64,000 bases of DNA. It comes from Giesbergeria anulus (GTDB taxonomy: Bacteria; Pseudomonadota; Gammaproteobacteria; Burkholderiales; Burkholderiaceae_C). Below are positions 5,633-13,445 of the stretch, piece by piece. Every line of letters begins with the position of its first letter. Position 1 is the stretch's first letter. The stretch lies in assembly GCF_900111115.1 (NCBI RefSeq), contig NZ_FOGD01000003.1, positions 186,001-250,000 on the forward strand, written 5' to 3'. A program made the translations under genes and the position numbers. Under the pieces are notes generated by a model. It was given only the letters and a program-made list of their open reading frames with translations. It was not told the DNA's origin and searched no databases.

Positions 5633-5706
5633 GCGCAATGTGCGTACTATGGCTTCTCTGAGGGATTTCTTTATTGAAGAGAACCGGACAGGTTCGGGAG
5701 AACGCC

Positions 5707-6993
5707 ATGACGACACATCTGCGCAGGATCACCAAAAACACTGCCGCTCTATCGGCTGCTGTTTTGTCATTCACACTGGTTCCGGCATGGGGGCAGCCTG
5801 TAGGGGCTGCGGCACCCTTGTCCCGTCTGGAAGAGATCGGGCGTCAGATTTTTCATGACCAAAATCTGTCCGAACCACGCGGCACTGCCTGCATCAGTTG
5901 CCATATCCCCAACCGAGGCTTTGCAGGCAACCACGGTTCAACCATTGGTGTTCCGTTGGGCAGCCGTGCCAACGTTCTAGGTGGGCGCAATGCCATGTCC
6001 AATGCCTACACGGCTTTCGTGCCCAAATTCACATTCCGGGTGCAGGGTGGCGATGTAGACCCGGTGGGGGGCCTGTTCTGGGATGGGCGGGCAGACACAC
6101 TGGCACAGCAGGCGCTGGGGCCGTTGCTTAATCCGCTAGAAATGAACAACCCGGATGCGGCGTCTGTGCTGACCAAAATTGCCAGTGGCATTTATGGCAA
6201 AAAGTTTCGTGATGAGTTTGGGGCCAACATCTTCAGCAATCCAACGCTGGCCTTTCAAAAGGTGGGTGAGGCGGTTGCCGCCTACGAGAGAACCGCAGAG
6301 CTACAGCCGTTTACCAGCAAATACGACCAGTTTATCCAAGGCAAGGCATCACTAACACCGCAAGAAGCCAATGGCATGAAGGTGTTTATGGACCCGAACA
6401 AAGGCAATTGCGCCTCGTGCCACACAATGAACCCCCAGTCGGCCAATCCGCGTGATTCGCTGTTTACCGACTTTTCCCACTACGCGCTGGGGGTGCCCCG
6501 CAATGCGCGCATTCCGCGCAATGCCAACCCGTCTTTTTATGATCTGGGGCTGTGTGGCCCAGATCGGAACAAACCTGCGCTCACGGCGGATGTTCCTGCC
6601 AACGTCACCATTGAGCAGTTTTGTGGGCGCTTCCGTATGGTCTCTTTGCGTAATACGGCAGAGCGGCCCGCTTGGATGCACAACGGCTATTTCACCCGGC
6701 TGCGCGATGTGGTCAGCTTTTATGCCACGCGCAACACCGACCCCAAACGTTGGTATGGCCCGCAGGGTGTACCTGATGACCTGCCCCAAGCCTACCTTGG
6801 CAACATCATCCGTGACCGTGTGCCCTTCAATCGGCTGCCTTCGGCTGGCCCGGCCCTGACCGCGCGCGAAATTGACGATGTGGTGGCCTTCCTCAGAACG
6901 CTGAGTGATACCGTGCCTGCGGCTCCTACCGCTCCAGTGCCTGCTGCCCCGCCGCCCAACCCGCGCACAGCCACCATCAATCCCTTCCAGTAG
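5707..6993 (+). CDS. Periplasmic dihaem cytochrome c peroxidase-family protein
   Basis: This belongs to the bacterial dihaem cytochrome c peroxidase / MauG superfamily, exported enzymes that reduce peroxide or oxidise protein substrates with two c-type haems. The 428-residue product begins with a signal peptide ending near AWG (residue 29). It carries two CXXCH haem-attachment sites, CISCH at residues 62-66 and CASCH at 235-239. The first haem site is followed by the NRGFAGNHGSTIG segment typical of this family. The start at 5707 follows GGGAG at 5696-5700; an upstream in-frame ATG (5674) would spoil the signal peptide. The C-terminal 25 residues are Pro/Ala-rich, perhaps a linker or exposed tail. 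No dedicated partner gene is adjacent, so the physiological substrate is open. Confidence 0.85.
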   Translation: MTTHLRRITKNTAALSAAVLSFTLVPAWGQPVGAAAPLSRLEEIGRQIFHDQNLSEPRGTACISCHIPNRGFAGNHGSTIGVPLGSRANVLGGRNAMSNAYTAFVPKFTFRVQGGDVDPVGGLFWDGRADTLAQQALGPLLNPLEMNNPDAASVLTKIASGIYGKKFRDEFGANIFSNPTLAFQKVGEAVAAYERTAELQPFTSKYDQFIQGKASLTPQEANGMKVFMDPNKGNCASCHTMNPQSANPRDSLFTDFSHYALGVPRNARIPRNANPSFYDLGLCGPDRNKPALTADVPANVTIEQFCGRFRMVSLRNTAERPAWMHNGYFTRLRDVVSFYATRNTDPKRWYGPQGVPDDLPQAYLGNIIRDRVPFNRLPSAGPALTAREIDDVVAFLRTLSDTVPAAPTAPVPAAPPPNPRTATINPFQ

Positions 6994-7183
6994 GCAGCGC
7001 ACAGCAACGCGATGCCAGCGCAGCGAGGCCCGCTGCCCTCTTTGCGGGGCAGTGTGGCCTGTGCTTGCATTTTCTTTTGGCGCAGTTTAGAGTGTCAGAA
7101 AAATATTACAAGCGCTGTTTCATTAGGGTCTCTTTTTCCTAGTTTTCCTAGTGTGGCGCTGCCAAGCTTTCAGAGAGTTCTCC

Positions 7184-8743
7184 ATGTCGCATAAGCCATT
7201 CACTCTTTCGCTCGTTTCTATGGCTTTGCTCGGTGGCTGCGTCACCCCTAAAGAGCATCAAAATTGGAAAGAGCCAGAAGCCAATGTCACTGTGGCTGCT
7301 GCTCCCAAGGCCTCAGCGGTCAAAACCATTACCAGCTTTTCACCCGCTCTGCGTTGTATGGATGAGTTGTTTTTAGCCTATGGCAAAAACGGCATCGTCA
7401 TTACCTCCACCGGCATCCCCGATGAAACCGGCAAGGTACGCACTGGCACTAAAGAAATGCTGATTACCGCCATAGCCAAAATGACGGTCAAGAGCAATGC
7501 TTTTGAGTTTATTGACTTTCATGGTGGTGGCGATGATTTGGCCCGTCTGTTTGATGCCAAGGGGGCGGAGCGGATGCGCATCCCCGACTATTACATCCGT
7601 GGTTCTGTCACGCAGATGGATGACAACACCATCCGTAAAAACAAAGGTATAGGGCTTTTTACCCAGTTTTTTGATGTCAGTACCGCCACCGATGTAGCCT
7701 ATGATTTGATGAGCATGGACATGAGCATTGGCGATGCCAGTTCGCGCAAAATTTTGCCGCAAACCAGCACCTCTAACACCATGCTGATCAGCAAAATGGG
7801 CAAGTCTGCCGAGTTGGGAGCTGGTAAAGTAGGCAAAATCGGCCTTACCTTCAACCTCGACTTCAGTCGCTCCGAAGGCTTGGGGGCCACTACGCGCACC
7901 TTGCTGGAGTTGGGCCTGATTGAAACCTTGGGCAAATTTACCCAAGTGCCCTACTGGCGCTGCCTGGATGCCGACATTACCAATCCCGTAATCCGCGAGC
8001 AGGCGCTAGAAACCTACAGCACCCTGACCGAGGTTGAGCGCGTCACCTTTGTCCAGCGCAAGCTCGGTGGCAGCATGAAGCGCTACACCGGCCCGATAGA
8101 TGGCCAAATGAACCCCGCCCTCAAAGAGGCGCTCCTAGAATACCAAGCGCAAAATGGTTTGGTGGCAGATGGCAAGATCAACTTTGATGTCTATGCCAAC
8201 CTGATGGACGATGTGCAAAACGTCTTGGCCTATGTTCCGGTAACGCCTCCCGCCAAAAACGTTGCCCCTGCACGTGCTCCCATGCCCCAAAGCCCCAGCC
8301 CTGCACCGGCGGCTCCTGTGGCATCGAGCTTTCGCATCAACCTTGACAGTGACCGTGGTGCGCGCCCCAATTACAAAGTGGGTGATTTCCTGAATATGTC
8401 TTTGTCACTGAGCGGCGACGGTACGGTGTATTGCTACTACGAAGACAGCAATCGGCAGGTAGCACGCATCTTTCCTAATCAGTTTGCGGGCAACCCCACT
8501 TTGCGGGCGGGCAGCTCTTTGCGCTTGCCAGCCGGTGGCTTCAAAATCCGTTTCGATCAACCGGGCAAAGAGCGTGTCGCTTGTATCGGTTCTGACCGTG
8601 AACAGGTACTTCCTAGCCACCTGAAAGGTGCCAAAGACCTCACGCCGCTGCCTGTGCGCTCGCTCGATGAGGTGGTGCAGCAGTTCCGCCAAGCCAACCC
8701 AGCCGCTGTAGTCAGTTTCGTTGATATTACGGTGGCCCGTTAG
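7184..8743 (+). CDS. CsgG/HfaB-like outer-membrane lipoprotein with PG-binding and DUF4384 domains
   Basis: This is probably the secretion channel of a curli-like export system. The start at 7184 gives a lipoprotein signal with lipobox LGGC (Cys19). Residue +2 is Val, so it should sort to the outer membrane. Residues about 40-260 resemble CsgG/HfaB: an early Cys-Met-Asp segment, then PDETGKVRTGTKEMLITA (compare the 'DETG' core of CsgG), a 'YYIRGSVTQ' strand, and a terminal LLELGLIETLG...PYWRCL. Residues about 280-342 look like a peptidoglycan-binding (PG_binding_1) fold. After an Ala/Pro-rich linker, residues about 383-480 match DUF4384. CsgG itself forms a nonameric export pore for curlin; the fusion to cell-wall modules is not in CsgG. 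It is the first gene of the eight-gene operon ending at 12308. The family call rests on motif similarity only. Confidence 0.72.
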   Translation: MSHKPFTLSLVSMALLGGCVTPKEHQNWKEPEANVTVAAAPKASAVKTITSFSPALRCMDELFLAYGKNGIVITSTGIPDETGKVRTGTKEMLITAIAKMTVKSNAFEFIDFHGGGDDLARLFDAKGAERMRIPDYYIRGSVTQMDDNTIRKNKGIGLFTQFFDVSTATDVAYDLMSMDMSIGDASSRKILPQTSTSNTMLISKMGKSAELGAGKVGKIGLTFNLDFSRSEGLGATTRTLLELGLIETLGKFTQVPYWRCLDADITNPVIREQALETYSTLTEVERVTFVQRKLGGSMKRYTGPIDGQMNPALKEALLEYQAQNGLVADGKINFDVYANLMDDVQNVLAYVPVTPPAKNVAPARAPMPQSPSPAPAAPVASSFRINLDSDRGARPNYKVGDFLNMSLSLSGDGTVYCYYEDSNRQVARIFPNQFAGNPTLRAGSSLRLPAGGFKIRFDQPGKERVACIGSDREQVLPSHLKGAKDLTPLPVRSLDEVVQQFRQANPAAVVSFVDITVAR

Positions 8744-8753
8744 GATGGTAATC

Positions 8754-9347
8754 ATGCCAACGCTCCTTCCCTTTGCCCGCAGTTGTCTTCTAGCCAGCTG
8801 TCTGGCAGTGGCAGGAGCGCAGGCAGAACCCGCGCTGCAAGTAGCCGAGTTGATTTTGGATTCGGGGCCAGCCACACCAGCGGCGGCCGCCAAAGCCACG
8901 GCCCAGACCCAGCGTGAAAAGGCAGAGGCGTTGTACAAAGGGCACCCATCCACCATCGTTGTGGAGCCCGACGATGAAGATGGCGTACTTAGCCCGCGTG
9001 GTGGTGCGCCAGCCCAAGAGCGTGCATTTGAACAACGTTGGCGCGGACGTGTTCTGCGCGACAGTAGTACCAAACCCATCACCCCTGAGTTGCCATTGGG
9101 GCCTGTCCCAACCCAGTTACAAAATGCGCGTGACACCAATGCTCGCTTGCGTAGCCGGGGTGCAGCCTACACTGGCTCTGGCAATTGGCACGACCTTGAT
9201 TTAAGCCACCGCGATAAAGAAGGATTGCCCCTAGTCAACTGTCACAGCATTGACAATGTTTCTGGCCGTATTGGTGACGACACGGCCTCTGGCAGCACGG
9301 TGTTTCTGATTCGCAACGGTCAACAAATTAAAGTTCGGTGTCGCTAA
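8754..9347 (+). CDS. Secreted protein of unknown function in the CsgG-like operon
   Basis: A 197-residue exported protein. The start at 8754 places AGGA (8742-8745), which overlaps the stop of the preceding gene, at proper spacing. An in-frame ATG at 8745 is the alternative. The signal peptide MPTLLPFARSCLLASCLAVA is followed by GAQA and a likely cleavage before EPAL. The mature part is charged and Ala-rich (residues 30-110). It then has a compact C-terminal region, residues about 130-197, with two Cys (VNCHSI and the penultimate KVRCR) that could form one disulfide. I do not recognise a family. By position it could be a periplasmic accessory factor of the CsgG-like channel, in the place that CsgE or CsgF would hold, but no sequence similarity to either is apparent. 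Confidence 0.7.
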   Translation: MPTLLPFARSCLLASCLAVAGAQAEPALQVAELILDSGPATPAAAAKATAQTQREKAEALYKGHPSTIVVEPDDEDGVLSPRGGAPAQERAFEQRWRGRVLRDSSTKPITPELPLGPVPTQLQNARDTNARLRSRGAAYTGSGNWHDLDLSHRDKEGLPLVNCHSIDNVSGRIGDDTASGSTVFLIRNGQQIKVRCR

Positions 9348-9418
9348 GAAATGCGTCAACCAAGCTACAGCGACAATCGTTGCTGCTATGAAGACGTTGT
9401 AAGAGAGGGGCTGCCATT

Positions 9419-9736
9419 ATGAAAAACATTCTCATTTACAGCGTGGGGTTGCTGTTTTCCACAGCGCAGGTCTATGCTCAAGTGGCCGTTGATATATCTG
9501 GCACGGGCATCAAGGTGCAGACGAGCGGTGCGTATGGTGCTTCGGTAGCCACCAATAGCACAGGCTCTTTGGGGCCTGAGGTCGAAATGGAGGGCGTTGC
9601 CGTCATCAACGGTGAAGTCTTTGTTGATGGTGTCAAAGTGCCACGCGGAAAAACTAGCTATTTCTCCAAAAAATCGGGTAAAACTTATATTATCCAATGG
9701 GGAAAAGATGGCAATGTGGCAGTTCACGAAAAATAA
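9419..9736 (+). CDS. Small secreted protein of unknown function
   Basis: A 105-residue protein with a clear signal peptide, MKNILIYSVGLLFSTAQVYA, cleaved before QVAVD. The mature 85 residues are rich in Gly, Val, Ser and Thr and predicted to be mostly beta. They begin VAVDISGTGIKVQTSGAYG and contain a 'VAVINGEVFVDGVKVPRG' segment. That composition suits a fibre subunit or a beta-sandwich adaptor. It has no cysteine. It sits 71 bases after the preceding gene with AGAGG upstream of the ATG. No family is recognised; being part of the surface-fibre operon is the main clue. Confidence 0.68.
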   Translation: MKNILIYSVGLLFSTAQVYAQVAVDISGTGIKVQTSGAYGASVATNSTGSLGPEVEMEGVAVINGEVFVDGVKVPRGKTSYFSKKSGKTYIIQWGKDGNVAVHEK

Positions 9737-9782
9737 CGGTTGCGCTATGATGCACTCATAAAAAACGAGACGGGAGGGTAAG

Positions 9783-10688
9783 ATGGCTTATCAGTTAGAG
9801 CAGCTCAAGAAAAAAGTGCGCCTTGTTTGTGCTACGGGTGCGTTGCTGGCTTGTCTGCAAGGGGCTTGGGCCATACAGCCTGTCAGTGCCAATTTTACGC
9901 AAGTGTTTGATGCCCAGTCTCAGGCCCTAACCATCTGGAAGATGGCTGACAATCCCGATGTTTTCATCTTTGATTTTCCGGGTTTGGTGTATCAGGGGCG
10001 CAGCTTTAACCGTATTACCCAATTTACGGAGCAACAGTTCACTGAACCTTATCCTAAGGTATTAAATAACCAAGAGTTAGCCAGTTATATCCAAGCATCG
10101 CGCCGTACCCAGTCAGATTTTGCTTTTGGGCACGACGTCTTGGTCTCTGAATTGGTGCAATTCTTCAATTATGCCCTGCGTGATAAGATTGAGTTATATC
10201 CAGAAGAACTGGTGATTCGTGATTTTTTGCTAGAGCAGGAGTTGGTTCGTTTTTGGCGTGGGTTTTACCAAGCAATGCGGCCAGATGCCGTGGTGTTGGC
10301 GGTGCCTCAAACCCAGCACCGCAAAACAGACGAGCCTATGATTACGGCAGGGGCACGCTATACGATCCTGTTGCATGAGTTGGCCCATGCCGAATATTAC
10401 ACCAATAGCCATTACCGAAAGTTCTGTCAGCGTTTTTGGTATCAAACACTGAAGCAAGAGCAGCGCAATGCTTTCAAAAATTTCCTTGCAAGTTCTAATT
10501 ATTCGGTAGAAAATGAAGAACTCCTGATTAATGAAATGCAGGCTTACCTGATTTTCACACCAGACCGCCGGTCATTCAGCGCCCACAGGTTAGGAATTTC
10601 TGATCTGGAGTTGCAGTCTATGCGTGATGCCTTTCGTCATGGTGCCCCACCAATCGCACTGCCCATGTCTGTCCCGGGAGGTTTGTAA
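9783..10688 (+). CDS. Secreted putative zinc metallopeptidase (HExxH)
   Basis: A 301-residue exported protein. A charged 13-residue N-terminus precedes a hydrophobic signal ending near WA (residue 31). The sequence contains HELAH at residues 198-202, a canonical HExxH zinc site. A glutamate sits 49 residues after the motif in INEMQAYL (E251), in the arrangement used for the third ligand by gluzincin-type peptidases. Flanking segments such as ARYTILLHELAHAEYY are strongly hydrophobic/helical, as expected for the active-site helix. I do not recognise a named peptidase family. It may process or trim the exported fibre proteins encoded on both sides, or act on peptidoglycan; both are inferences. 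Its stop overlaps the next start (TAATG). Confidence 0.7.
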   Translation: MAYQLEQLKKKVRLVCATGALLACLQGAWAIQPVSANFTQVFDAQSQALTIWKMADNPDVFIFDFPGLVYQGRSFNRITQFTEQQFTEPYPKVLNNQELASYIQASRRTQSDFAFGHDVLVSELVQFFNYALRDKIELYPEELVIRDFLLEQELVRFWRGFYQAMRPDAVVLAVPQTQHRKTDEPMITAGARYTILLHELAHAEYYTNSHYRKFCQRFWYQTLKQEQRNAFKNFLASSNYSVENEELLINEMQAYLIFTPDRRSFSAHRLGISDLELQSMRDAFRHGAPPIALPMSVPGGL

Positions 10689-11008
10689 TGCGATGCACCC
10701 ACGCCAAGCCTTTTTTATTGCTGGTAAGCCTATCGGTCGGTTTTGTTGCTAGCGCTACGTGGGCGCAGACCAGCCAGCGCACCCGTATTCAAGGTAATAC
10801 TGAAATCAATGCCACCACTGAAAACATGACGGCGATTGCCACCGGTGAAAATAATGTAGCCAAAAACCGGGTAGGTGTAGTACAAGGTGAAAAACGCGGC
10901 AATACACGTATCAATGTGGTCACTAAGAATATCACTACTATCACCAGTGGCCGCAACAAAAAAGCATGTACCAATATTGGAGGAATTGTCAGCGATGAAT
11001 GCAAATAA
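10688..11008 (+). CDS. Small secreted curlin-like repeat protein
   Basis: A 106-residue protein with a signal peptide cleaved after TWA (residue 26). The mature part holds two imperfect repeats of about 35 residues. The first, RIQGNTEINATTENMTAIA then TGENNVAKN, contains the spacing G-x-x-N-x-A seen in curlin repeats. The second begins TRINVVTKNITTITSG. The C-terminus adds two cysteines (ACTNIG and DEC). It is a paralogue of the protein at 11994-12308. Its composition (Asn, Thr, Ile, Gly; few aromatics) suits an amyloid beta-solenoid. The start overlaps the preceding stop (TAATG) behind a strong GGAGG, so translation is probably coupled. Role as a fibre subunit or nucleator is inferred. Confidence 0.68.
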   Translation: MRCTHAKPFLLLVSLSVGFVASATWAQTSQRTRIQGNTEINATTENMTAIATGENNVAKNRVGVVQGEKRGNTRINVVTKNITTITSGRNKKACTNIGGIVSDECK

Positions 11009-11309
11009 ATATGCGATGGGAATGCTGTGGATAACTCTGGCGCTGGCCCTGCCGTTTAGCGCCCAAGCCGTGCAAGGACTCGATTCTTCTGGGCAAACCA
11101 AGGTAAATAAGGCGATGGCTCAACGCTGGATGCAAAAAGGCGGCACAGAAAACACCCCAACACAAGATAAGCGGGTGGTCAATGTGGGCAATAAGCGTTC
11201 GGGTACCTGCAATGTCAATGTAGGTACCGCGCCAGCAGATAGCCGCACGGGCCGTGCGCCCAAGGATATCGTCGTAACGACGAAGGAAGTTATCAATGTT
11301 TGCAAATAA
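10995..11309 (+). CDS. Small secreted protein in fibre operon
   Basis: A 104-residue exported protein overlapping the preceding gene by 14 bases; GGAGGA at 10979-10984 serves as ribosome-binding site. The signal peptide MNANKYAMGMLWITLALALP ends with cleavage after FSAQA. The mature region is basic. It ends with VVNVGNKRSGTCNVNVG and EVINVCK, so it has two Cys that may pair. The N-rich beta-type C-terminus resembles the tail of the repeat protein just upstream (NTRINVVTKN...), suggesting a distant paralogue. A longer in-frame extension upstream exists but lies inside the neighbour and is not expected to be translated. Function unknown. Confidence 0.62.
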   Translation: MNANKYAMGMLWITLALALPFSAQAVQGLDSSGQTKVNKAMAQRWMQKGGTENTPTQDKRVVNVGNKRSGTCNVNVGTAPADSRTGRAPKDIVVTTKEVINVCK

Positions 11310-11961
11310 GCCAACCACCCAAAAGACAGTGAGCGGCATGGCCTTGTCTCGTCTGGCTGTCATCGCTTTGGGTATGTGTGCTATGGGGATGGTGAACGCG
11401 CAAACTAATATGGACGATGAAGAAAAATTGCGCGAGTTGGAGCGTGCTATTCACGCACCTTCTGAAAATACCGGAGCAGCAAAGCCAAAGCCAGCTCGGC
11501 GTACCCGTGCCATTGTTTTTGATGGTGAACCAGAGCCACAAGCTGCTGAGCCGGGCAATGCTGCGCCTACCACGAGTGCCTCTGCGGCGATGGATTGCGC
11601 TGCTTTGCCACCTGGGACTAAAACCATTGGTGTCGATTTTGCTATCCAGTTTAATGTTGGTAGTGCTACGGTATCGCCAGCTTCAGAGCGTACCCTCAAT
11701 CAAATTGCACGCATTTTGGCTTTGTCGCCAGACCGTTGTGTCATTGTAGAAGGGCATACAGACGCCACGGGCAACTATGATAGAAACATCATGCTTTCCC
11801 GCGACCGTGCTGGTTCTGTTGTCAACTTTATTTCCAACCGCAACGGAATTGATCGTAAGCGCCTCGTACCCGTAGGTAAAGGCTCTAGCGATTCAATACA
11901 GAACCTCGACCCGCGCGACCCCAGAAACCGTCGCGTAGTATTCAAGGTAGTCACTGGCTAA
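11296..11961 (+). CDS. OmpA-family peptidoglycan-anchoring protein
   Basis: A 221-residue exported protein. After a signal segment (cleavage near VNA, residue 35) and a Pro/Ala/Glu-rich linker (about 45-95), residues about 108-220 form an OmpA C-terminal domain. It has IQFNVGSATVSPAS, VIVEGHTDATGNYDRN and LSRDRAGSVVNF, with the Asp and Arg that bind meso-diaminopimelate of peptidoglycan. The gene overlaps the preceding one by 14 bases and starts behind GAAGGAAG. In this operon it probably fixes the secretion apparatus or fibre base to the cell wall, matching the peptidoglycan-binding module fused to the CsgG-like protein. Confidence 0.8.
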   Translation: MFANKPTTQKTVSGMALSRLAVIALGMCAMGMVNAQTNMDDEEKLRELERAIHAPSENTGAAKPKPARRTRAIVFDGEPEPQAAEPGNAAPTTSASAAMDCAALPPGTKTIGVDFAIQFNVGSATVSPASERTLNQIARILALSPDRCVIVEGHTDATGNYDRNIMLSRDRAGSVVNFISNRNGIDRKRLVPVGKGSSDSIQNLDPRDPRNRRVVFKVVTG

Positions 11962-11993
11962 GCCAGAAAATTTTTGTTAATCAGGAGAATCTC

Positions 11994-12308
11994 ATGCGTC
12001 TTATTTCTATCATGATCGCTGCCGCTGTTGTTGCTGTCCCCGCTTTTGCCCAGCAAGCCCAACGCTCTAGCAGCCCCCAAGGTGTGCAGATTCAGGGCAA
12101 CACCAATATTGATGCCCAAAACAAGAACGTGACCGCGATTGCAGTGGGTGAAGGCAACGAAGCCAAAAATACCACAGGTGCTATCAAGGGTGGTACCCAG
12201 ATTCAAGGCAACACCAACATCAAGGCTAAGCAAACCAATGCTACCGCTATTGCTGTAGGTAAGGATAACAAGGCCGCCAACGAAGCTGGCGTGATTGGCG
12301 GTAAATAA
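11994..12308 (+). CDS. Small secreted curlin-like two-repeat protein
   Basis: A 104-residue protein with a short signal peptide (MRLISIMIAAAVVAVPAFA) and a mature part that is almost entirely two repeats of about 37 residues. Unit 1 begins QIQGNTNIDAQNKNVTAIAV and continues GEGNEAKN. Unit 2 begins QIQGNTNIKAKQTNATAIAV and continues GKDNKAAN. The G-x-x-N-x-A pattern and regular Asn/Gln ladder recall curlin repeats. It is the last gene of the operon, separated from the OmpA gene by 32 bases with AGGAG before the ATG, and followed by a strong terminator. It is the best candidate for a major fibre subunit. Amyloid formation is an inference from the repeat pattern and the CsgG-like partner. Confidence 0.7.
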   Translation: MRLISIMIAAAVVAVPAFAQQAQRSSSPQGVQIQGNTNIDAQNKNVTAIAVGEGNEAKNTTGAIKGGTQIQGNTNIKAKQTNATAIAVGKDNKAANEAGVIGGK

Positions 12309-12351
12309 ACCGACTATGCCCAAGCCTGAAAAGGCTCAAGCTAAAAATGAC

Positions 12352-12384
12352 AGCTGCCCGGAGTTTTTCGGGCAGCTTTTTTTT
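12352..12384 (+). terminator. Intrinsic terminator of the CsgG-like operon
   Basis: A perfect 9-bp stem, AGCTGCCCG (12352-12360) with CGGGCAGCT (12369-12377), has an eight-base loop and is followed by T through 12384. It closes the operon that begins at 7184 and also separates it from the convergent gene ending at 12405. Confidence 0.9.
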
Positions 12385-12404
12385 ATTAGAGAAAGATAAA
12401 AATA

Positions 12405-13445
12405 TTACTTTTTGCGTGCAGCAATGTCTTTTTCGGCTTGGGATACCAGATCAGCACCAATCTGGCTTTTCCACTTTTCTACCACTGAACGGGTGGCTTT
12501 GACAAAAGCATCGCGCTCAGTGGCTGTAAGCTCAGTGACGGTGGTGCCATTGGCCATGAGTTGTTTGACCAAGGGCTTATCGGCTTCGACCAGTCCTTTG
12601 CGAGCAATCACGATTTGCTCTTTAGCAGCATCGATGGCGGCTTGTTTCACAATATCACGGTCTGCGGGTGTCCAAGAGTTCCAGATGTCTTTATTCACCA
12701 CAAAAACCAGTGGATCATTCATATAACCCCACAGGGTGACATATTTTTGTGCCACGGTGTGCAGTTTGGCAGTTTGATAGATGGACAGGGGATTTTCCTG
12801 ACCATCCACAGCACCACTGGCCATGGCGGGCTGGGCATCGGCCCAGCTCATTTGTGTCGGATTAGCACCCAATGCGGTAAAGGTGTCCAAAAACAGGGGC
12901 GAGCCTACCACGCGGATTTTCATGCCCTTGAGGTCGTCTGGGGACTTGATCGGCTTTTTGGAGTTGCTGATTTCGCGGTAACCATTTTCACCCCAAGCCA
13001 GCGGCACGACACCGGCTTTGTCTAAGGTTTGGAACAAGCTCTTGCCCACAGCGCCTTGGGTCAGGGCGTCGGTGGCGGCGTAGTCGGGCATCAGGAAGGG
13101 CAGCGAGAACAGATTGAGCTGTTTGACTTGGGGCGACCAGTTGATGGTTGAGCCAATCGCCATGTCGATCACGCCTTGGCGCAGGGCAGAAAACTCACGG
13201 GTTTGGTCACCTTGGATGAGAGAGACGCCAGGGTAGAGCTTGATATTGATGCGGCCTTGGGTGCGCTCACGTACCTTGTTGGCCCACAACTCGCCACCCT
13301 TGCCCCAAGGAAAGGCCGTGCCCAATACCAGTGAGAGGCGGTATTCGCTCTTGTAGGCCGCTTGCTGTGCCAATGCTGCTGGGGCGGTAAAAGCCAACGT
13401 AGCTGCCGCAGCCACGGTGCTCATCAAAAAGGTACGCAGTTTCAT
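12405..13445 (-). CDS. TRAP transporter solute-binding protein (DctP family)
   Basis: This is a periplasmic receptor of a tripartite ATP-independent periplasmic transporter, which normally binds C4-dicarboxylates or other organic acids. The start at 13445 follows AAGGAAA and gives a typical signal peptide ending TAPAALA; a longer frame to 13469 is less likely. The roughly 346-residue protein has the DctP hallmarks. These are a TQGAVGKSLF-type region, GMKIRVVGSPLFLDTFTALG with the conserved carboxylate-binding Arg, and ANPTQMSWADAQPAMASGAVDGQENP. No DctQ or DctM membrane gene is adjacent, so it either pairs with a distant permease or has been recruited for another role. It converges on the fibre operon. 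Confidence 0.9.
   Translation of the reverse strand: MKLRTFLMSTVAAAATLAFTAPAALAQQAAYKSEYRLSLVLGTAFPWGKGGELWANKVRERTQGRINIKLYPGVSLIQGDQTREFSALRQGVIDMAIGSTINWSPQVKQLNLFSLPFLMPDYAATDALTQGAVGKSLFQTLDKAGVVPLAWGENGYREISNSKKPIKSPDDLKGMKIRVVGSPLFLDTFTALGANPTQMSWADAQPAMASGAVDGQENPLSIYQTAKLHTVAQKYVTLWGYMNDPLVFVVNKDIWNSWTPADRDIVKQAAIDAAKEQIVIARKGLVEADKPLVKQLMANGTTVTELTATERDAFVKATRSVVEKWKSQIGADLVSQAEKDIAARKK

Follow-up and report, generated by a model that had tools for sequence, protein, structure and literature searches.

What kind of system is encoded by eight consecutive genes of Giesbergeria anulus, most of which match no known protein family? The genes (g1 to g8; Table 1) lie on the forward strand of a 64,000-nucleotide stretch of contig NZ_FOGD01000003.1 (positions 186,001 to 250,000), hereafter called the window, and their open reading frames (ORFs) span positions 7184-12308 of it. 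We read the operon as encoding an exporter of the CsgG type, which would assemble the repeat proteins g5 and g8 (type R) into a fibre or coat on the cell surface and is tied to the wall by g1 and an OmpA protein; the probability of this reading is put at about 0.6. The computed support consists of the CsgG-like fold of g1, the wall domains, the gene order, the modelled beta-solenoid of g8 and the profile matches of R. From these we infer lipidation, pore formation, export, assembly or polymerisation, location and every single-gene role, and the R product may be an amyloid.

A first-pass annotation, made from the sequence alone, had described eight genes packed with overlaps and closed by a strong terminator. 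The genes and the terminator, a hairpin with a T run, were both found. The packing was borne out in part: overlaps occur at three of the seven junctions (1 base at g4/g5, 14 at g5/g6 with the ATG at 10995, and 14 at g6/g7), whereas the remaining four are gaps of 1, 71, 46 and 32 bases (taking ATG 8745 as the g2 start). The eight proteins were scanned against Pfam and NCBIfam with curated cut-offs, and their signal sequences were assessed by eye, without a signal-peptide predictor. The domains that had been named for the set were recovered: PG_binding_1 (E 1.4e-6) and DUF4384 (E 6e-15) in g1 and the OmpA domain of g7 (E 1.7e-18) exceeded the Pfam cut-offs, and the HExxH motif occurs in g4 as HELAH. 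No Pfam family scored above its cut-off in g2-g6 or g8. A promoter scan returned 5 sites against 5.4 in shuffles, that is, not above shuffles, and Rfam at its gathering score detected no RNA element in 6900-12500.

Table 1. Features of the operon and its upstream neighbour, in window coordinates
Feature	Position	Strand	Description
g1	7184-8743	+	519 aa; probable lipoprotein, lipobox LLGGC seen in the sequence
g2	8745-9347	+	~200 aa; apparently secreted, without known family; start uncertain (TTG 8721, ATG 8745 or 8754)
g3	9419-9736	+	105 aa; apparently secreted; conserved second half INGxVxIDG...YxIxWGK
g4	9783-10688	+	301 aa; gluzincin-like metalloprotein (HExxH, HELAH); downstream Glu in NExQAYL
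g5	10688-11008	+	106 aa; R type; two ~37-residue beta-repeat units, C-terminal Cys pair
g6	10995-11309	+	~104 aa; apparently secreted; start uncertain (ATG 10995 or TTG 10986)
g7	11296-11961	+	221 aa; apparent signal sequence and OmpA peptidoglycan-binding domain (residues 119-210)
g8	11994-12308	+	104 aa; R type; two 37-residue units, modelled four-rung beta-solenoid
Intrinsic terminator	12352-12387	+	11-pair stem, 4-base loop, T run
MauG-like di-haem cytochrome gene	5674-6993	+	directly upstream of g1

The reading depends first on g1, whose likeness to CsgG had been proposed from motifs. In g1, a CsgG-fold region (residues ~49-264) is followed by PG_binding_1 (286-338), a Pro/Ala linker and DUF4384 (397-472). 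An AlphaFold2 model was built from 54 related sequences, with a mean predicted local distance difference test score (pLDDT) of 74.8 and a predicted template-modelling score (pTM) of 0.49. CsgG occupied all of the first 25 rows of its Foldseek PDB list (best E 1.3e-9). VIA scored eight CsgG entries at Z 13.2-14.9, with alignments that for the most part cover model residues 49-264; against 4uv3_A, Z was 14.7 with a root-mean-square deviation of 3.6 over 185 aligned residues of that span. CsgG matched above every other listed fold, the best of these being DUF330 (Z 10.3) and PelC (Z 9.5). Profile-profile comparison of g1 with 20 CsgG-family rows, which represent 20 of 29 loci after a length filter and include doubtful, partly wrong-strand rows (such as L115, L126, L128 and L135), gave a probability of 79%; with eight rows that we chose by hand out of those 20, it was 87-90%. 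The E-values ranged from 1.6e-5 to 4.6e-7, each from a single comparison. The first ~265 residues of g1 are thus predicted to adopt the CsgG fold, though the sequence link is weak. The same core fold occurs in PelC, LptE and other lipoproteins (Z 7.7-9.5), Pfam CsgG has no match in g1, and all parts of the operon look exported, two of them with wall-binding domains. Such features would also suit envelope maintenance, with g1 as a lipoprotein of the wider CsgG/PelC/LptE-like fold group that forms no pore, R as a periplasmic spacer or scaffold and g4 as an envelope protease. This is quite unlikely, as CsgG scores well above those lipoproteins in an alignment that includes the long strands at 136-184, and as curlin spacing (QxGxxN) occurs in seven of 15 distant partners examined (see below).

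The gene set was next followed through the g1 relatives, namely the best 80 of 269 from a genome scan (L033-L112). Partners were counted with iterated profiles over six-frame ORFs, and some of the R calls are fragments or overlapping frames (for example in L036 and L039). A closed g1 ORF is present in 35 of the 36 loci of L033-L068. The order g1-(g2)-(g3)-g4-R-g6-g7 is kept in 26 of these 35, with the full series 1-2-3-4-R-6-7-R in 21. In 29 of the 35 loci R is found no more than 7 kb from g1, so that repeat protein and lipoprotein do co-occur; g3 is present in 29, g4 in 28, and g2, again within 7 kb, in 28. In three loci (L065-L067) the partners are split between two diverging strands, and L050, L061 and L063 are interrupted by contig ends. 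Rhodocyclus purpureus DSM 168 and Propionivibrio dicarboxylicus DSM 5885 are named strains with the split-type set (L065, L072). Among the genera represented are Giesbergeria, Accumulibacter, Azonexus, Sulfuritalea, Sterolibacterium, Gallionella and Rhodoferax. The eight genes are a real conserved unit and not a product of chance, given that 26 of 35 loci share both their set and their order. That unrelated exported genes came to be adjacent by accident would suit the fact that most of them have no assigned family. It is hardly credible, however, when the order is kept in several betaproteobacterial groups and on one contig labelled Deltaproteobacteria, and when the two-strand arrangement retains the same partners. 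Of the other 44 loci, mostly from Alphaproteobacteria, 35 have an OmpA gene no further than 7 kb from g1; over the same distance R was found in 12, g6 in 10, g4 in 4, g3 in 3 and g2 in none.

Both R proteins have an apparent signal sequence followed by two units of ~37 residues. In the g8 model (AlphaFold2, 50 sequences), pLDDT averaged in blocks of ten residues is 90-96 from residue 41 to 100, and the two units contain eight strands that form four strand-turn-strand rungs; g8 is therefore predicted to be a beta-solenoid. Extra R copies are common in the operons, and one locus (L044) has five, one of g5 type and four 3' of g7.

To look at the partners of more remote g1 proteins, 20 distant g1 loci were compared with an equal number of arbitrary control loci; 17 controls came from genomes of the test set, several shared a contig with a test locus, and L203 (test) and L223 (control) were shorter than the rest. 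An apparently secreted protein with internal repeats was found in 8 of the 20 g1 loci with a strict filter and in 16 with a relaxed one, whose thresholds were chosen after the strict result was known; no control passed either filter. A CsgG-DUF4384 channel beside an apparently secreted repeat protein is thus a shared trait of these systems (29/35 near loci; 16/20 distant loci, relaxed filter). Partner profiles built without the distant loci were then applied, with a match defined as E ≤0.01. The R profiles matched repeat proteins in 9 of the 20 distant loci (for example L206, 8e-14; L205, 1e-12; L207, 8e-7; L195, 2e-5; and L194, 6e-6 with the g5 profile), and the g6 profile matched beside g1 in 16, each against 0/20 controls. 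The g2, g3 and g4 profiles had no match in the 20 distant loci. QxGxxN, the minimal curlin spacing (PMC3521004, in part), occurs in 3-12 copies in 7 of 15 distant repeat proteins, these seven coming from six g1 loci, a number of copies reached by 0 of 500 shuffles for each; the 15 were picked by hand, and locus L024 contributed two of them, as did a pair of closely related loci (L021, L022). Together, the profile matches of R and the QxGxxN of some distant partners place R in a repeat group that grades into curlin-type spacing and is invisible to the classical curlin profile.

Combined with the domains of g1, these results allow a mechanism to be outlined. After lipidation, g1 would insert as a ring of CsgG-fold subunits that forms an outer-membrane pore, while its PG_binding_1 and DUF4384 domains would remain periplasmic and fix the pore to the wall with the help of g7. 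The R proteins would cross the inner membrane by Sec, pass unfolded through the g1 pore, and fold outside the cell; the resulting short beta-solenoids would join at their ends to give a fibre or coat. With its C-terminal Cys pair, g5 might be the cap, starter or base of the fibre. The best candidate for the adaptor role held by CsgE and CsgF in curli would be g6, because it is the small gene found beside g1 in distant systems. A role for g4, possibly a protease, may be to trim or quality-control subunits, and g2 and g3 may be accessory.

The operon resembles curli in having a CsgG-fold channel, as judged from the predicted structure, beside small, apparently secreted strand-turn-strand repeat proteins. 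It differs in that g1 is about twice as long and adds PG_binding_1 and DUF4384, in that the R units are of ~37 residues without QxGxxN, and in the additional genes g2, g3, g4, g6 and g7. In the draft genome (99.6% complete, 33 contigs), CsgE and CsgF profiles found no match up to E 1, in agreement with the first-pass view that neither gene is recognisable, and the curlin repeat family PF07012 had none at E 0.001. According to parts of PMC3521004, curli systems of Alphaproteobacteria lack csgE, with csgF also missing in about half of the genera, and non-specific CsgG matches suggest a larger family. Since the genome has no match to CsgE, CsgF, Curlin_rpt or Pfam CsgG, the operon, read in this way, works like curli or HfaABD but is no curli member. 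This supports the earlier proposal of a surface fibre or anchor system distinct from classical curli.

In the HfaABD system of Caulobacter, HfaB is the CsgG-like component of the holdfast anchor, HfaA and HfaD need it for surface display, and one partner is curlin-like (PMC6707917, in part). Its likeness to our operon lies in a CsgG-like protein with surface partners; the wall-binding domains, the OmpA protein and the HExxH protein are differences. This system raises an alternative in which g1, g7 and R form an anchor complex that holds an exopolysaccharide or other matrix polymer, as HfaABD holds the holdfast, with R as short capped oligomers. The two wall-binding modules fit such a complex, as do the shortness of the R units (four predicted rungs), the Cys pair ending g5-type proteins, which could cap growth, and the dependence of HfaA and HfaD on HfaB. 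The NCBIfam HfaB model (NF037935) also touches g1 at residues 31-92 (E 0.017), but its score of 14.3 bits is far below the cut-off of 300. The general family scans of g2-g8, in which library coverage of the two families was unchecked, returned nothing by the name of HfaA or HfaD, and up to five R copies per operon are more like a bulk subunit. The anchor complex is regarded as unlikely, and the exporter of a fibre or coat as the better account of the operon.

The Fap operons of Pseudomonas, which encode a functional amyloid, offer a third comparison. They have repeat units similar in size to R and include a protease gene, and Foldseek lists FapC for the R model as one of just two entries, neither of them significant (E 8.6). 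The channel of our operon differs in having a CsgG fold, and no Fap-named family (FapF, FapB/FapC) appeared in the family scans of the eight proteins. No description of this operon was found among the open-access papers listed, as judged on titles and abstract beginnings; it is probably a curli-related export operon with its own set of parts.

Several observations weigh against a fibre-building CsgG-type exporter. For the channel, PF03783 failed to match g1 even with a limit of E 1, and a search of the genome at E 0.001 was likewise negative. A profile of the g1 sequence reached PDB CsgG at E 0.13-0.15, ranked under an unrelated dehydrogenase, and residues 1-265 alone reached it at E 1.3, with CsgG as the only PDB protein listed up to E 10. 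The model has a pTM of 0.49, and near the membrane hairpins (residues 154-166 and 211-230) most of it is at pLDDT <50. As for the subunits, the first-pass annotation had credited two repeat proteins with curlin-like spacing; the repeats are there, but the spacing is not, with a period of ~37 and a QxGxxN count of 0 in both g5 and g8. Neither has a Pfam or NCBIfam match above cut-off. Nothing in the PDB matches the R model significantly, with the HET-s amyloid (E 5.2) and FapC as the only entries at E ≤10, and VIA gave Z of only 2.5 against HET-s (two chains compared); a structural resemblance to HET-s or FapC is suggestive at most. Searching the R profile against sequences of solved structures returned only E 0.3 matches to an unrelated ligase. 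Beta-solenoids are, moreover, frequent among proteins that form no fibres (PMC10192328, in part; the same source defines the curlin motif as N-x-psi-x-psi-x-Q). QxGxxN is absent from 8 of the 15 distant repeat proteins examined, and Pfam Curlin_rpt matches none of 10 repeat proteins scanned, four of which have QxGxxN. The partners also vary: only half of the distant loci (10/20, against 1/20 controls) have an OmpA gene in the g1 stretch, and among the closer relatives L046 and L051 have g1 alone and L062 has g1 and g2 only, despite ~10 kb of downstream sequence.

Three surveys, with a different query each, looked for members of the g1 family at E ≤1e-10: the order yielded them in 13 of 250 genomes, the family in 63 of 299 and the phylum in 21 of 398. 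A broader proposal, for which the odds are close to even and which we make tentatively, is that these represent a large unnamed CsgG-type class of Beta- and Alphaproteobacteria. It would combine a wall-anchored CsgG-DUF4384 channel, a g6-type adaptor in place of CsgE/CsgF, and a new family of functional-amyloid subunits running from QxGxxN forms to the Q-less R. If so, the class records the divergence of the curlin-type amyloid repeat together with its channel. If the exporter reading is right, CsgG-type machines form a wider group to which both curli and the holdfast anchor belong, and which standard profiles miss because Pfam CsgG skips the channel and Curlin_rpt skips the repeat subunits. 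When g1 is aligned with a CsgG relative (L113), the loop that follows the first strand of its CsgG domain proves to be shorter by ~13 residues. This loop carries the CsgG constriction, and it may be suggested that the g1 pore is gated differently. A CsgG-type channel with an altered near-pore loop and built-in wall anchors would then be useful for studying pore gating.

The operon is present in six Accumulibacter-named contigs (L035, L036, L049, L054, L056, L057). Accumulibacter granules hold poorly understood extracellular protein, and a curlin from Flavobacterium is reported in one granule secretome; the examined parts of the same report mention no Accumulibacter curli (PMC12019908). If our reading is right, the operon is a direct candidate for the source of matrix protein in these granules.

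With regard to origin, the window g1 is 86% identical to that of another Giesbergeria locus (L033). In a quick tree, the two group together and cluster with four Rhodocyclales-type rows (Accumulibacter, Azonexus, Rhodocyclaceae); the fork of these six rows had a Shimodaira-Hasegawa-like approximate likelihood ratio test (SH-aLRT) value of 99. The best other g1 of its own family among 299 genomes scored 423 bits against 740 for the window copy, a comparison that favours the window since the profile contains the window protein. The position of the window copy inside Rhodocyclales suggests horizontal transfer, which is likely, though not proven, for the g1 operon. A tRNA search of the window found none, so insertion linked to a tRNA is unsupported. 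A link to the MauG-like gene upstream of g1, considered on account of weak HxsA and MauG-like family matches, was rejected: 116 g1 loci were surveyed together with 20 controls, many of these stretches ending early, and L034, which has a 97% identical g1, was the one locus where a relative appeared near g1.

Among the remaining operon genes, g2 has a C-terminal Cys pair that most of its relatives share. The R profile picks up part of the g3 proteins as well (E 4e-4 to 9e-9), and so g3 may be an R-derived hybrid. In 17 co-linear relatives of L033-L068, the g3-g4 gap is 221-545 bases, against 46 in the window. Split-type loci have an extra Pro-rich, apparently secreted protein after g3, with PPPLIWRAP and RPSNRD motifs; it was seen at L020:6168-6713 and L019:6825-7493 and in L065, L066, L067, L072 and L089. 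The HExxH and downstream NE..QAYL residues of g4 are at least 90% conserved across 33 sequences, and the GHTD and LSxxRA residues of g7 at least 90% across 70. The conserved C-terminus of g6 reads C.VNVG...IVVTTKEVINVCK. In one distant locus that also carries QxGxxN repeat proteins (L024:14389-16398), a g4 relative with HExxH (E 4e-69) adjoins an OmpA gene on the strand opposite g1.

Some loci depart from this pattern around g1 itself. L046, with g1 and no partners, and L040, with the complete operon, are labelled as the same metagenome-assembled genome. In 18 of 19 Azospirillum-labelled loci (among L073-L105), a second g1-profile protein follows g1. On an A. ramasamyi plasmid (L017:10800-11987), the second g1-like protein is annotated DUF4384 and located after the OmpA gene, and the plasmid of A. 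lipoferum 4B carries g1 and OmpA but no second g1-like protein. An extracytoplasmic function (ECF)-type sigma factor was found in the g1 stretch of 10 of 36 distant loci (L017, L021, L022, L024, L029, L191-L195), of one locus of L033-L068 (L051) and of 0/20 controls, which hints at a dedicated regulator. Very long repeat proteins (703-1285 aa) lie beside diverged g1 paralogues (L030:8310-11892, L031:7783-13490, L032:2980-8457). The two that were scanned, from L030 and L032, matched no family above cut-off; these proteins are possibly another class of substrate for CsgG-like channels.

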